Of a DNA stretch of 25,472 bases, positions 17,014 through 25,472 are shown piece after piece (the first letter of the stretch is position 1; each line of letters starts with the position of its first letter). The stretch covers positions 1 through 25,472 of the IMG/VR virus record IMGVR_UViG_3300025131_000380; one strand, given 5' to 3'. The notes below the pieces were generated by a model. It saw only the letters and a list, made by a program, of their open reading frames with translations. It had not been told where the DNA came from and searched no databases. This DNA is from a virus. Both the position numbers and the translations under genes were made by a program.

Positions 17014-17042
17014 TTGACTTTTTAACTTTTGATTAATATATA
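17014..17042 (+). promoter_or_regulatory. Sigma70-like promoter of the plus-strand gene
   Basis: A -35-like TTGACT (17014-17019) is followed after 17 bases by a -10-like TATATA (17037-17042). Transcription would begin near 17050 and leave a leader of about 50 bases before the ATG at 17099. The leader has a short AGGG/CCCT hairpin and a strong GGGAG ribosome binding site. The promoter resembles host housekeeping promoters rather than the late motif, so early expression is plausible. Confidence 0.5.
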
Positions 17043-17098
17043 TGATAGTTATATATAGGGTGGAAATCCCTTTTTCAATAACTAACGGGAGAAAAAAC

Positions 17099-17320
17099 AT
17101 GAAGGAAATAATAACAATGGTGAAAGGCTATGTAGATGATTTAGCTCATCTAATGATGTCTTTTGTAGCTATAGGTGCTGTGTCTGAAGTAATTTTCGGA
17201 ACCGGTGTCTTTGGCGTCAACGTTATTGGTAACCTGACATCAATCATAAACACATTCGGTGAGTCCGGATTTGCTGGGCTTGTCGCCTTGTTGGTGTTGG
17301 TGGGTTTATTCCGTAAGTAA
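17099..17320 (+). CDS. Small two-segment membrane protein (monocistronic)
   Basis: This 73-residue protein begins at the ATG that follows ACGGGAG, not at the upstream in-frame ATG at 17042, which has no ribosome binding site and would lie within the promoter. It has two hydrophobic segments, about 17-41 (AHLMMSFVAIGAVSEVIFGT onward, with Gly) and 57-71 (FAGLVALLVLVGLF), joined by a polar loop, and ends FRK. It is the only plus-strand gene in the window. By hand count about 43-45% of the bases from 17161 to the stop are G or C, against less than about 30% in a line of the neighbouring sigma-factor gene. It has its own promoter and terminator. Holin-like, superinfection-exclusion or virion-membrane roles are all possible; none is shown by sequence. 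Confidence 0.75.
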   Translation: MKEIITMVKGYVDDLAHLMMSFVAIGAVSEVIFGTGVFGVNVIGNLTSIINTFGESGFAGLVALLVLVGLFRK

Positions 17321-20783: not shown

Positions 20784-22139
20784 CTACTTTACTTCTGGCA
20801 CATTACAATCACGACAGATAACTTTGGTGTTCTCTACAATGGTAGCACCACCAGCAGAATGTGCATCTATATGTCCTTTCACTGCGTCACCGAAACGAAG
20901 TGTACATCCACAATCCTCACAAACCTTATTACCTTTACCATCATCATTTTGTAACCATAAATTAAATAAATCTCTATCTGAAATAACTCTCAAGGGGTCA
21001 ACACCAATCACACCATCACAACTATCTAACTCATTAAGTAAAAATTGTAACCTAATTTCCAAACCCTTTGAATCAGAACTTAATCGTGTCTTTTGGTGAT
21101 AAGCTGTCTCCTCAATACCAATCTTCTTCTGCTTATCACTAACCATCAATAATCTATTGTGTGTAACAAAAAACCAATCAACAAACTTATTCCAATGTTT
21201 GACTCTCAATGACTTATCATTTAATATGTGATTTGTTATGAGAGTTAAATTTAAAATAACACCCAAGTTTACACTCTTCTTATACTTCTTATTTTTCAAC
21301 ATAGTGTACAACTTATCTAAAACTTTATCGACCTTTGTACTACTAAATTGATTTCTATATTCAGGTTTCAAATACATATTTTTCAAAGTTTTTGCTGAAA
21401 TACCAGATTCTTTACCTATACCCAAAACGATGGCAGCAATCTTAGCTAACAACTCATCTTGAGCCATCTTCTTAAATGTCAATGAAGTGTAGAGTGATTT
21501 AAGAGATTTACTATCCCTCTTAAATAAATCATGTAGTTCAAACTTCACACCTTTCCACTTATTATCTAATCGAGAAGTTCCACGAACATAAGCAGCAGGT
21601 GCAGTATTTATCGCATTTCTCTTTTCAGCTTCTGTCATAGCATTGAGGTCATTTAAATCACAAAACATCTGCATTATCTCAGCTTCATTATGGGAATGAG
21701 TCAATACCAATCTTAATTCGGATGAGAGAAACTTCTCTGCTAATTGTGGAAAATTAATCTTTACATCAGACCAATTCATACCACTAAGATCACATTCATC
21801 TTCAATCTGATAGTCCACCACAACACATGTGTCCAATTTAAATTTGTCATTGAGAAAATCCATAATGGTTCTAAATCTCTGTTGCCCATCTATCATTTCT
21901 GTTATGGAATGTAAAGCGCTTATTCTATTTCCACCATCCATAACCATATCCTGATTATCAACTCTAGCGTATAAATTAGGGATGACACGATTACCCTTAA
22001 AAATACTACCAATGAGTTTTTGTTGCCAACCCTTCTTCTCATGTGCGATGTAATCTCGCTGATAGGCTGGGTTTAAATTTATTGTTTTTGATATCGTTTC
22101 GATATCCTTTATGTTTATCACTTTAAGTGAACTCTTCAT
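20784..22139 (-). CDS. DUF262-HNH nuclease-like protein
   Basis: This 451-residue protein has an N-terminal DUF262 (ParB-like NTP-binding) domain: YQRDY (26-30), WQQKLIGSIFKG (38-49), DGQQRFRTI (84-92), then FCDLNDLNAMTEAEKRNA (159-176). An extra DGGNR sits at 68-72, so the motif appears twice. The C-terminus has an HNH/treble-clef: C407 and C410, GHIDAHSAGG (422-431), N437, C442 and C445. This architecture occurs in modification-dependent restriction and anti-phage nucleases such as the GmrSD/BrxU-type group. In a phage it could attack competitor DNA or be a homing-type endonuclease. The first 60 bases after 20820 are 43% G+C by hand count, higher than most neighbours. It is followed closely by the glycosyltransferase. 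Confidence 0.75.
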   Translation of the reverse strand: MKSSLKVINIKDIETISKTINLNPAYQRDYIAHEKKGWQQKLIGSIFKGNRVIPNLYARVDNQDMVMDGGNRISALHSITEMIDGQQRFRTIMDFLNDKFKLDTCVVVDYQIEDECDLSGMNWSDVKINFPQLAEKFLSSELRLVLTHSHNEAEIMQMFCDLNDLNAMTEAEKRNAINTAPAAYVRGTSRLDNKWKGVKFELHDLFKRDSKSLKSLYTSLTFKKMAQDELLAKIAAIVLGIGKESGISAKTLKNMYLKPEYRNQFSSTKVDKVLDKLYTMLKNKKYKKSVNLGVILNLTLITNHILNDKSLRVKHWNKFVDWFFVTHNRLLMVSDKQKKIGIEETAYHQKTRLSSDSKGLEIRLQFLLNELDSCDGVIGVDPLRVISDRDLFNLWLQNDDGKGNKVCEDCGCTLRFGDAVKGHIDAHSAGGATIVENTKVICRDCNVPEVK

Positions 22140-22256: not shown

Positions 22257-23450
22257 TTATCTACCTACTTCTGCTAAGTACATTTCTTTAGTTTCTTTCC
22301 AAGTCTTTCCTACGATATCACCATAGAAAAGCTTTTCTGGTTTAATTCTACCTTCATTAAATAATTTGGTATATCTTCTAATAGCTTTTGGTTTCCACCA
22401 CTTCATTATGTAAGCACTATCATCAGTATACTTCTGTTTCATCTTTAAATCTTTTTCTTCTATTTCACCTCGTAAAAATTCCTTACCATTCTCATAGATA
22501 TCGGCATAGAAGATACCTCTCTTAAATCCATGTTGGTATTGTGAAGCCTTAACTCCGACTACATTAAAAATCATACCAATAATTTTTTGTTTAATTCCTG
22601 TTGGTGGTCCTGCTACACCTTCTTTTTGTGTATTTATTTTTTTATATTCATCAGAACGATTTTCTTTTAACCAATCAACCCAAACTTCATAAGTTGAATC
22701 ATCTGGCTTCAATGTTACTCTACCAACTGATTCGCCTAAAGTTTTCCAATGAGGTATACTATTGTACATAGAATGTATGCCATACAAAGATGTAGTTGAA
22801 AGTCCTACCAAAGTTTGTCCATAAGTTTTTTTCCAAGCATCTCTAACTACTGAAGATGTTACTAAAGCGGCTACTAATTTACCACCTAAAAAATTATATC
22901 CTAATGGTTGAACACAACATATTGTTGTACCAATAGAAGTATGTTTCAATTTACCATCTTTATATTTATTATCTAATGACCAACCAATAAATCTATCTCT
23001 AGCTCCTAATGAAGTTACATCAGAACCTAAACAAATAACTCCTAACAATTTACCGCTTATTCTATCTTTAACAAAGAACTTCATATTTCTTCCAGGATTA
23101 GCAGTAAACTCCATTGTATGAATCAACTTACGAACTAATGTCCAAGTCTCATTATCCTTAGCATTACCCTGTTCTAACATTTCAACGTAAGGTTCTAATG
23201 CTTCAATTTCTTTAATGGTTTGTTCTTTATTATTTATATCATTAGGACACCAAAGTGAATTATTAATTCTTTTGAATTTAGATGCTTTCTGAGTCATTGA
23301 ATAAACATCAGCATTAAACTCTTGCCATTTTTTGTAAAGTGTTTGTTCTTGTACAGACATAGACTTTAGATAATCTAAGTTATCGATAAACTTCTTGCGT
23401 TCAGCATCGAAATCAAATTTTTCTTCATCGAAGAAATTATTAAAACCCAT
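22257..23450 (-). CDS. DUF4338 / DruA-like protein
   Basis: This 397-residue protein carries the core motif block of DUF4338, the family of DruA from the Druantia anti-phage system. It has GKLLGVICLGSDVTSLGARD (about 130-149) followed by RFIGWS, then CCVQPLGYNFLGGKLVAALV, a tract equivalent to VLLETFVD-type strands (TLVGLSTTSLYG) and HWKTLGESVGRVTL. A helical N-terminus (1-90) and a charged C-terminal extension (about 270-397) flank it. Druantia normally comprises several genes; none of its helicase partners is in this window. The start ATG has only a weak CGAGA site. It stands between a tRNA and the DUF262-HNH gene, a usual kind of place for acquired phage genes. Its biochemical role is unknown. 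Confidence 0.7.
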   Translation of the reverse strand: MGFNNFFDEEKFDFDAERKKFIDNLDYLKSMSVQEQTLYKKWQEFNADVYSMTQKASKFKRINNSLWCPNDINNKEQTIKEIEALEPYVEMLEQGNAKDNETWTLVRKLIHTMEFTANPGRNMKFFVKDRISGKLLGVICLGSDVTSLGARDRFIGWSLDNKYKDGKLKHTSIGTTICCVQPLGYNFLGGKLVAALVTSSVVRDAWKKTYGQTLVGLSTTSLYGIHSMYNSIPHWKTLGESVGRVTLKPDDSTYEVWVDWLKENRSDEYKKINTQKEGVAGPPTGIKQKIIGMIFNVVGVKASQYQHGFKRGIFYADIYENGKEFLRGEIEEKDLKMKQKYTDDSAYIMKWWKPKAIRRYTKLFNEGRIKPEKLFYGDIVGKTWKETKEMYLAEVGR

Positions 23451-23500
23451 TTATTTCTCGTTAATTTTCAATAGTTAAATAGCCACGCTGGCCAAATTTG

Positions 23501-23572
23501 AGCGGATGGATGGAGTCGAACCAGCATCTCTTCGATGGTATCGAAGCGTGTTTCCTATAACACTTCATCCGC
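23501..23572 (-). tRNA. tRNA-Gly, anticodon ACC
   Basis: The minus strand folds as a 72-base cloverleaf: acceptor GCGGATG/CATCCGC (7 pairs), D-stem GTGT/ACAC with a GG-containing loop, a 5-pair anticodon stem CTTCG/CGAAG with loop ATACCAT, a 4-base variable region, and a T-arm with TTCGA (one C-T mismatch in the stem). The discriminator is U73 and the acceptor starts G1-C72, C2-G71, the known bacterial glycine identity features. The anticodon reads ACC (codon GGU). Residue 8 is A and 14 is U, the reverse of the usual U8-A14. CCA is not encoded. The unusual loop makes function uncertain, but the fold is clear. Confidence 0.75.
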
Positions 23573-23614: not shown

Positions 23615-24058
23615 TTATGTTTGTGATTGTATAAATTTTTCATCAATAAAATTTTCTAAATTTTTAATTGCTTTTGTTACTAACGTTTTAGTATTTTCTG
23701 GAAAAGCTGTAAAAGCTGGTGTTGGTGGCGGAGTTCCAGTCAATACTCCTCCTGAAGTAACTGCTGTTGCTATTAATGTAGTAATACTTCCTATTCTTGC
23801 AATAACTTCAGCACAATTTTCTGGTCTTAACTTTGCTTCGGGTGGACTTCTCATACCTTTTGAAATAAATGCTGGCGTAATTCCAGCCAACACAAGATTA
23901 ATATTAGTTGTAATTACAGCAAAATTTCTTGTAAGAGCTACCGTTGATGTTCCATAAGTTACACCATCAACAGCTGCCTCAGCAACCTTTGCAGTTACTG
24001 ATGCTAACGTCACAGCCGTTTTAGCTGCTTGTGCTGGTATTAATAATATTCCTGGCAT
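23615..24058 (-). CDS. Small Ala/Thr-rich hypothetical protein after tmRNA
   Basis: This 147-residue protein is rich in Ala, Thr and Val. The N-terminal 60 residues (AAKTAVTLASVTAKVAEAAV, then TTNINLVLAGITPAF) form hydrophobic helices without the length or continuity of clear transmembrane spans. A Pro/Thr-rich loop GTPPPTPAF (about 108-116) precedes a C-terminal helix, ATKAIKNLENFIDE-like. Similar compositions occur in small structural or baseplate-associated proteins of marine phages, but I recognise no family. The ribosome binding site AGGA (24066-24069) lies only 4 bases past the end of the tmRNA, so the tmRNA and this gene share a transcript. The long opposite-strand frame is rejected because it overlaps the tRNA and has no good start. 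Confidence 0.6.
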   Translation of the reverse strand: MPGILLIPAQAAKTAVTLASVTAKVAEAAVDGVTYGTSTVALTRNFAVITTNINLVLAGITPAFISKGMRSPPEAKLRPENCAEVIARIGSITTLIATAVTSGGVLTGTPPPTPAFTAFPENTKTLVTKAIKNLENFIDEKFIQSQT

Positions 24059-24072
24059 ATTTTTTCCTAAGT

Positions 24073-24477
24073 GGAGCTGAGGGGATTCGAACCCCTGTCC
24101 AGTCTGTCTTTTTCAAAGAGTCATTCACAGCTTAGTTTGGTTTCCAAATTGGTAGTCCACCAACAAACCCACCATAACCTCTTTACTCAGAAAGGCTTAA
24201 CTAACAAGTCCGTTTTACTTCACACTTGCAGAAGAAGATTGTCTAACTTATTTTATACTCGGGTGTTAAACAACCCAAGGACTTATGCGTAAGCGTAAGT
24301 CGGTTGGCTATCACCGATTGGTGTAGCTGGGTAATCATACACAGCTAAGTGCCAATCAATAACCAACCCGTCTAGCGAACTATCGCTATTTGAGTTTGTG
24401 AGCCTTTTGTAACAAGACCTGCTCAATCTCTGCTGCACTCTATTGTCAAATAACATCTGTCGATACCATTCAGCCCC
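24073..24477 (-). ncRNA. ssrA: Transfer-messenger RNA (tmRNA), one-piece
   Basis: The 5' end GGGGCTGAATGGTATCGACA and the 3' end AGGGGTTCGAATCCCCT followed by CAGCTCC form the tRNA-like domain. The 7-base-pair acceptor (one G-U) closes the 405-base molecule, and a T-arm with TTCGA is present. In between lies a tag reading frame that ends ...TYAYA then TAA at 24283, and a 3' half with helix-forming segments as in the pseudoknots (GTTGGTGGACTACCAATTT region). CCA is not encoded. The arrangement is standard (not the permuted two-piece form of alphaproteobacterial hosts). It rescues stalled ribosomes by trans-translation. It is packed between coding genes: the stop of the upstream gene is 4 bases away, the next ribosome binding site 4 bases beyond. 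Confidence 0.93.
24283..24342 (-). other. tmRNA tag-encoding frame
   Basis: The frame within the tmRNA reads VYDYPATPIGDSQPTYAYA and stops at TAA (24283-24285). UAGCU before GUG matches the usual UAGNN ahead of the resume codon, which favours GTG (24340-24342) as the resume point; GCT one codon earlier (24343-24345) is the alternative. The tag ends YAYA rather than the usual hydrophobic LAA or VAA. Tag length and end are read directly; the resume codon is inference. Confidence 0.7.
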
Positions 24478-24481
24478 ATAT

Positions 24482-24637
24482 TTAATCATCTGCGCCTTTC
24501 CACCAATCTTCATCTTCTTTATATTGTTCAAAGACATCACCGTCTTCTAAATAAATTATTATTTCTCTTACCAAATCCCAATTTTCTTCTTCCGTAGCTT
24601 CTTTTAAAGTACTAACTATCCAATCTAAGTCAAGCAT
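24482..24637 (-). CDS. Acidic 51-residue protein upstream of tmRNA
   Basis: This small gene was read directly. An ATG (24637) follows TTGGAGATAAAT (GGAG site, 6 bases away) and the frame runs 51 codons to a TAA. The product is acidic and helical, with MLDLDWIVSTLKEATEEENW at the start, LVREIIIYLEDGD in the middle and EDEDWWKGADD at the end, giving three Trp in the N-terminal third and C-terminal tail. I recognise no family; the length and acidity recall small phage inhibitors or DNA-mimic proteins, but this is speculation. The stop lies 4 bases before the tmRNA 5' end, so the two are cotranscribed and separated by RNA processing. Confidence 0.65.
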   Translation of the reverse strand: MLDLDWIVSTLKEATEEENWDLVREIIIYLEDGDVFEQYKEDEDWWKGADD

Positions 24638-24980: not shown

Positions 24981-25472
24981 CTATAATAAATGTGGTTTTG
25001 CTTCAATTGTTCCTGCTTGGGTAACTCTAACGAATTCACATTTCGATTGAAAATCCAGTATATCCCTCGCGCCAACATATGAAAAAGACGAGCTAAGACC
25101 ATCACGAATATCAGATAAAATCCGTTTAACTTTACCTTTATACGGGATAATTTTAGAGTTTCCCTCAATATTATTATACTCTCCTCTATCACTTTTAGAG
25201 TCAATAGAAGCACTTCCTCTATACTTTTTATATAACCTCTCATTTGGCCATTCTCCTACTTTTGTTATATCACCCGGCGTTTCCTTTGTCCCAGCGAGAA
25301 GGGACCCGAGCATAACTGAATCAGCTCCACAACCAAGTCCTTTACACACATCCCCAACATTACGAATGCCACCGTCAGCAATGACAGGAACATCGTAATC
25401 GTCAGCAACGGAACACACATCAAGAAGAGCAGTAACCTGAGGAAGTCCAACCCCGGTTCTGATTCTCGTTTC
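24981..25472 (-). CDS. guaC: GMP reductase / IMP dehydrogenase family, C-terminal part
   Basis: The gene is cut by the right edge: 163 codons are visible. They begin ETRIRTGVGLPQVTAL, just after the catalytic Cys loop (which would read SxC(T/E)TR). PVIADGGI and GADSVMLGSLLAGT then build the conserved phosphate-binding barrel, and YKKYRGSAS starts the flap. GMP reductases have RTGVG, GSAS and a short flap ending in EGxxxxxPYKG; here NNIEGNSKIIPYKG agrees, as does the end SSSFSYVGA. This favours GMP reductase (GMP to IMP, NADPH) over IMP dehydrogenase. No CBS domain can be judged because the N-terminus is missing. In a phage it would tune purine nucleotide pools for DNA synthesis. Confidence 0.78.
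   Translation of the reverse strand, partial: ETRIRTGVGLPQVTALLDVCSVADDYDVPVIADGGIRNVGDVCKGLGCGADSVMLGSLLAGTKETPGDITKVGEWPNERLYKKYRGSASIDSKSDRGEYNNIEGNSKIIPYKGKVKRILSDIRDGLSSSFSYVGARDILDFQSKCEFVRVTQAGTIEAKPHLL

Follow-up and report, generated by a model that had tools for sequence, protein, structure and literature searches.

The DNA analyzed in our study, referred to as the window over its full length of 25,472 bases, is a virus record that comes from a tailed phage, one of whose genes encodes a T4-type baseplate wedge protein, and we confirmed that it carries a genuine phage-encoded one-piece tmRNA (ssrA). The gene, its fold, a conserved resume signal, a long conserved tag frame and a linkage to a neighbouring gene were all found by computation. 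We favour the reading, with a probability of roughly 70%, that this is a working phage-carried tmRNA which uses the SmpB of the host and adds a bipartite tag consisting of a C-terminal protease signal and a second signal at the N-terminus. Most likely the true resume codon is nt 91 (position 24387), 45 nt earlier than the start called by ARAGORN, so that the tag comprises the 34 aa SDSSLDGLVIDWHLAVYDYPATPIGDSQPTYAYA; the ARAGORN tag of 19 aa, starting at nt 136, is almost certainly truncated.

ARAGORN called the gene in one-piece form, and the Rfam model RF00023 matched it end to end from 24069 to 24477 with 78.7 bits (E 2.8e-29; cut-off 47), which is the covariance-model check that the initial annotation had proposed. 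Both calls excluded a permuted gene order, as in two-piece tmRNAs. Since the fold was also better than that of shuffled sequences (MFE z-score -4.45), the earlier observation of a phage-encoded one-piece tmRNA at this locus is confirmed; its strand, which had been left unnamed, is minus. CCA is not encoded in the gene, the 3' end of which reads CUCCA-CUU. Only the tmRNA and a tRNA reached Rfam gathering scores in the window, which thus showed no riboswitch, and a promoter scan returned no more sites than in shuffled sequences. The statement that few phages carry ssrA is outdated. Ten phage tmRNAs were listed in 2014 (PMC4131195), by 2021 the count had reached 402 of 18,146 phage genomes and 133 distinct genes (PMC9004378), and hundreds of mycobacteriophage records matched in our analysis. 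One-piece forms are rarely marine (PMC9004378). The methylophage Melnitz and related marine myophages also carry ssrA, but theirs is of the permuted two-piece, alphaproteobacterial type (PMC9004378).

Table 1. Features of the tmRNA locus in the window (positions of the whole stretch).
Feature	Position	Strand	Evidence
tmRNA (ssrA) gene, one-piece, 407 nt	24071..24477	minus	ARAGORN, RF00023, covariation over 11 + 56 sequences
tRNA-like domain, 5' half, acceptor GGGGCUG including G3	24458..24477	minus	G3-U70 kept in 56/56
Pseudoknot 1 region: S2 UGAGC/GCUCA, S1 GAGAUU/GGUCUU	24399..24431	minus	S2 by covariation; S1 by eye
Hairpin AGCGA-UAGU-UCGCU, opening at first base of resume codon	24374..24387	minus	pairing in 56 sequences
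Tag reading frame including stop, SDSSLDGLVIDWHLAVYDYPATPIGDSQPTYAYA after the tmRNA-borne Ala	24283..24387	minus	putative start from A(-4), open frame and silent changes
Conserved N-terminal tag block, 15 codons, [GS]DxSLxGLxIDWHLA	24343..24387	minus	alignment of relatives
C-terminal end of the tag (PTYAYA) with stop; overlaps P5	24283..24303	minus	alignments of relatives
Helix P5	24282-24299	minus	overlaps C-terminal tag end and stop
Pseudoknot 2: S1 CUUGGGU/ACCCGAG, S2 UUGUUUAAC/GUUAGACAA	24239..24279	minus	covariation, 11 + 56 sequences
tRNA-like domain, 3' half: T-arm, acceptor CAGCUCC, discriminator A73	24072..24098	minus	T-arm pairing
Small acidic protein gene, 51 aa, MLDLDWIVSTLKEATEEENWDLVREIIIYLEDGDVFEQYKEDEDWWKGADD, directly upstream of tmRNA	24482..24637	minus	linkage, structure prediction
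147 aa ORF, 13 nt after tmRNA gene, RBS-like TTAGGA before it	23615..24058	minus	close relatives carry ORFs with a similar N-terminus and size in this place

The fold was supported by covariation in two alignments. The first contained 11 sequences, namely the window, a contig binned in a metagenome-assembled genome (MAG; L275) and nine others; the loci of these relatives were located via the baseplate gene and a neighbouring DruA-like gene, their tmRNAs lying near the same gene. This set is unbiased because the loci were retrieved without use of the tag. A model of the acceptor, T-arm, P2, stem 2 of pseudoknot 1, P5 and pseudoknot 2 gave 97.3% standard pairs, with changes on both sides in 22 pairs compared to 10.7 in shuffles and compensatory changes in 54 cells compared to 16.3. 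None of 500 shuffles reached these values, and sliding the partners lowered the pairing to 34-45%. In the second alignment of 56 sequences the acceptor and pseudoknot 1 columns were misaligned (the pseudoknot 1 stretch was 76.8% paired); therefore, direct end-to-end pairing and the 11-sequence alignment were used for those parts. The ends of the tRNA-like domain pair, as described in the initial annotation; they form a 7-bp acceptor with G3-U70, and a T-arm is present. Wherever both ends were located (56 sequences), G3-U70 was retained despite acceptor stems of five kinds, and A73 was present each time. A group of long-tag tmRNAs (L349, L385-L388 and similar) has the acceptor GGGCCCG/CGGGUCC in place of GGGG..., likewise with G3-U70. 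Double changes were seen in 5/5 pairs of the T-arm (100% paired, 56 sequences), in 3/5 pairs of stem 2 of pseudoknot 1 (100% paired, 11 sequences), and in 3/7 and 4/9 pairs of stems 1 and 2 of pseudoknot 2 (100% and 93.8% paired, 56 sequences). The segment 24110-24280, on whose pseudoknot pairing the earlier proposal had been made to depend, thus contains a pseudoknot with compensatory changes. For pseudoknots 3 and 4 plausible pairings were found by eye in a region that is not alignable across the relatives. The hairpin at the resume codon was 100% paired in the 56 sequences, with the compensatory version GGUGA/UCACU in three of them (L327, L329, L368). The molecule shares with canonical bacterial one-piece tmRNAs the G3-U70 domain, T-arm, P2, pseudoknots 1 and 2, the A at position -4 and a stop in P5. 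It differs in its tag, which has 34 aa compared to most often about 10 aa (PMC11915505), is bipartite with a constant N-terminal block, ends in YAYA instead of LAA or VAA, and contains the extra stem GGUUGG/CCAACC within its frame.

When viral contigs were searched with the alignment of the tags, 109 relatives were returned, of which 80 were kept; with the window included, there were 61 distinct sequences. The members are uncultured marine phages with tags of 34-42 aa that are in frame from the block to the end, and all follow one layout: the constant block GDxSLxGLxIDWHLA is followed by a variable linker, and the tag closes with approximately (Q/E)P(T/S)YAYA(A). Most of the 61 were retrieved by the peptide pattern GL[VD]IDWH, and the conservation of these residues is therefore partly by construction. 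The flanking residues are exempt from this effect: S4, L5, L14 and A15 were invariant in the 61 sequences while using two to four codons each. Not all conservation of the block is at the peptide level, since parts of it are held by RNA pairing in the resume hairpin and in the GGUUGG/CCAACC stem; constraint on the RNA is a partial alternative explanation of the constant block. The initial annotation overlooked this block because it placed the start of the tag too late. No record of the long tag was found in 50,697 annotated phage genomes, a sequence search of a structure library with the tag gave weak matches only, and the family was not found in the literature searched. As far as we searched, the long-tag tmRNA family is undescribed so far, and phage tmRNAs as such are already known. 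Mycobacterium phage Bxz1 and similar mycobacteriophages share the one-piece form, a large phage and a long annotated tag (ATDTDATVTDAEIEAFFAEEAAALV, 25 aa); their tag is unrelated in sequence and length, and only the 3' end of the tRNA-like domain aligns, covering 11% of the query. Five related phage loci with the same DruA neighbour (L115, L117, L135, L136, L148) carry short tags, GNEYQYMAAA, GNEYQYMAVA and GNYNTYNVAYA, which also lack LAA. The family is conserved over dozens of phages, and its constant block is absent from the bacterial tags seen here; both observations suggest that selection in phages acts on the tag itself and not on ribosome release alone.

From these features we infer how charging, use of SmpB, tagging during infection, choice of protease and a role of an adaptor might be connected. 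The host would add CCA, and the alanyl-tRNA synthetase of the host would then charge the tmRNA by means of the G3-U70 identity element and A73. Host SmpB would deliver the tmRNA to ribosomes stalled in infection, translation would resume at nt 91, and the stalled chain would gain Ala and the 34 aa tag. The end PTYAYA(A) would act as a protease signal suited to the proteolysis of the host itself. The constant block, separated from this end by the variable linker, would be a second signal, most likely the binding site of a delivery factor or partner. An adaptor site is our best guess on the analogy with SspB, which binds the E. coli tag in its N-terminal part. The E. coli tag AANDENYALAA and its adaptor share the logic of an adaptor site combined with a C-terminal unfoldase site (PMC9382460), but the motif is another one, the spacing in the window is much longer, and an adaptor for IDWHLA is only proposed. 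The partner of the block might come from the host, or it might be the small acidic protein of the phage whose gene lies just upstream. Host SmpB is needed if the RNA works, since no SmpB was found in two sets of records from related phages (28 and 25), of which many are long but none is known to be complete; the model was positive in 10 control bacteria.

Tentatively, and with a rather low probability, tagging may even be owned by the phage, in that the IDWHLA block of the bipartite 34-42 aa tag would be bound by the acidic protein encoded upstream, and the phage would control to which protease stalled products are sent or how else they are dealt with. In most cases only a few bases separate the end of the acidic protein gene (45-57 aa) from the long-tag tmRNA that follows it. 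It was found near 41 of 51 long-tag loci and near none of 58 other phage tmRNA loci, which have short tags. Among loci found via DruA, it was present in 8/11 with a long-tag tmRNA and in 3/69 without one, and the genes downstream of long-tag tmRNAs vary despite this linkage. Structure prediction gave the protein a helical-hairpin fold (mean pLDDT 82) with an acidic tail of low confidence. It had no convincing relative in Pfam or PDB and only weak matches in the structure-library sequence search, and in Pfam and PDB it showed no sequence relation to a known SspB-type adaptor. That this protein reads the tag is a guess, and the linkage may reflect inertia of gene order. A protein reading GDxSLxGLxIDWHLA is a concrete target, with a candidate partner gene adjoining. 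In three relatives (L101, L183, L361) the acidic gene and the tmRNA are separated by a gene for a cold-shock-like protein.

The tag frame does close with PTYAYA and a stop, and thus with a non-LAA end as initially described, both in the ARAGORN call and in the alignment of relatives. It had been suggested that this end may stabilise tagged products or redirect their turnover; this reading, with the products kept from ClpXP or passed to Lon, we regard as rather improbable. The terminal di-alanine contacted by ClpX (PMC9601184) is missing in a YA end, and one relative ends in YAFA like the Lon-directed Mollicutes tag NYAFA (PMC9382460). However, of the 60 family members that have a stop, 38 carry a final AA and 19 a final YA, the two forms being one codon apart (AYAA 30, YAYA 18, SYAA 3, YAAA 3, AFAA 2, YAFA 1, others 3), and YAYAA-type ends are commoner than YAYA. 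A canonical LAA or VAA end was found in 0/60; the window ends in AYA. Moreover, the candidate host order also has AAA and AYA tag ends, and YAYA is therefore probably no escape from proteolysis. ClpX was above the cut-off in 30 and Lon in 31 of the 41 genomes of that order. With AA and YA interchanging in the family and similar ends in the candidate host, YAYA by itself is not strong evidence of stability. Degradation by another route appears as likely as stability, given the resemblance of the one YAFA end to the Mollicutes tag. The window has TYAYA in place of the exact NYAFA end and relative L090 has TYAFA, and the comparison, which keeps a possible Lon route open by analogy, concerns a long tag with a Y-A-aromatic-A end and not kinship of the tmRNAs. 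The phage family differs from the Mollicutes case in that roughly two of three members carry an AA end, and ClpX is encoded in the candidate host order.

This candidate host came from a scan of genome collections, in which the phage contig L275 with the same neighbouring genes was found binned in the marine MAG 'bacterium TMED198'. The tmRNA of this MAG has the tag ADYGYAAAA and scored 172 bits with RF00023; ClpX is present in the MAG and no Lon was found above the cut-off. For the comparison with host ssrA that had been proposed earlier, the tags of this order were used (ADYGYAAAA, ADNYGMAYA and others), which mostly end in AAA or AYA, with two ALAA among those listed. They share with the phage tags a D or N as second residue, the hairpin at the resume codon and the AAA/AYA ends, but comprise 9-10 aa and lack the IDWHLA block. 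Of 245 genomes searched in the TMED198 phylum, one had the tag pattern, and there the match was the phage contig itself, so there was no sign of a tag copied from hosts of this phylum. As binning is fallible and the pattern is limited to this one genome, the TMED198 order, suggested by one binned contig and shared tmRNA features, is a lead. Two other hosts were considered from the nearest named relatives of the baseplate wedge protein, Microcystis phage Mel-JY01 (49%) and Flavobacterium phage immuto (40%). The photosystem gene PF00124 was absent in 28 related records, an absence that does not exclude a cyanophage origin, and Shine-Dalgarno-like motifs before the genes of the window make a Bacteroidota host less likely.

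The length of the tag depends on where translation resumes. The 45 nt ahead of the ARAGORN start were open in the tag frame in 61/61 sequences, with 103 and 138 stops in the other two frames. In the unbiased 11 sequences 13 of 22 changes in this stretch were at third positions, and 9/18 codon changes were silent compared to 0.26 expected (P = 0.025), which is modest; in the larger set, the codons independent of the search gave no significant result (P = 0.32). An A stands at position -4 of nt 91 in 60/61 sequences, and the exception (L314) has an A one codon earlier. In E. coli the equivalent base A86 sets the tag frame and A86G is nearly inactive (PMC2481249). From nt 91 the frame stays open up to the stop inside helix P5. 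The resume codon is AGC in the window, which is rare (2/61), and GGC in most relatives, where the hairpin reads GGCGA-UAAU-UCGCU. In the tmRNAs of the TMED198 order a hairpin (GCCG-AUUA-CGGC) likewise begins at the resume codon; such a hairpin is mostly missing in phage tmRNAs with ALAA tags. An ordinary phage tmRNA whose 19 aa tag starts at nt 136, the preceding 45 nt being an untranslated structured spacer, is unlikely. ARAGORN chose this start, the preceding UAGCU resembles UAGUC of E. coli (PMC2481249), and the 45 nt sit in conserved hairpins; however, the base at -4 of nt 136 is a G in 13/61 sequences, the spacer would be an open frame with silent codon variation, and nt 90-96 fall within the range of resume codons of the other one-piece tmRNAs found in our analysis (nt 77-99). 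Automatic tag calls can therefore be badly truncated for long-tag tmRNAs.

Even less probable is a phage tmRNA that competes with the host tmRNA by titrating SmpB or stalled ribosomes, with the tag being secondary. A competitor role was suggested for the RNA of phage DS6A, which consists of the tRNA-like domain only, and a molecule of this type strongly inhibits tmRNA (PMC4131195); that no SmpB was found in the related phage records would also fit. A pure inhibitor needs no tag, though, whereas the 61 sequences have kept the frame, the resume signal, the stop and the two ends of the tag. Finally, it is highly improbable that the locus is a host-derived copy in decay or a protein gene mistaken for a tmRNA, and the protein gene was rejected: although an 85 aa ORF (24283-24540) covers the tag and the score of 78.7 bits is below that of the tmRNA of the candidate host, stops break the frame upstream of nt 91 in 9 of the 10 relatives aligned with the window, the RNA pairs covary, and G3-U70 in 56/56 sequences is not expected of a decaying copy.

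Further genes surround the working tmRNA proposed here. A search with the 147 aa protein encoded downstream gave no confirmed relative. The gene at 22257-23450 (minus) encodes a homologue of Druantia DruA (PF14236, 90 bits), which lies near the tmRNA in several related phages, and the gene at 20784-22139 (minus) combines GmrSD N-terminal and HNH domains, perhaps as a restriction-like or homing-like enzyme. The C-terminal part of an IMP dehydrogenase (PF00478) at 24981-25472 (minus) is cut by the end of the contig; in relative L235 an IMP dehydrogenase-like gene lies directly upstream of the tmRNA. A tRNA-Gly with the anticodon ACC, which is unusual for Gly in bacteria, is located at 23500-23572 (minus), and Gly-TCC occurs in the related phages L064 and L275. 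A hydrophobic 92 aa ORF at 17042-17320 (plus), possibly holin-like, stands amid genes of the minus strand.
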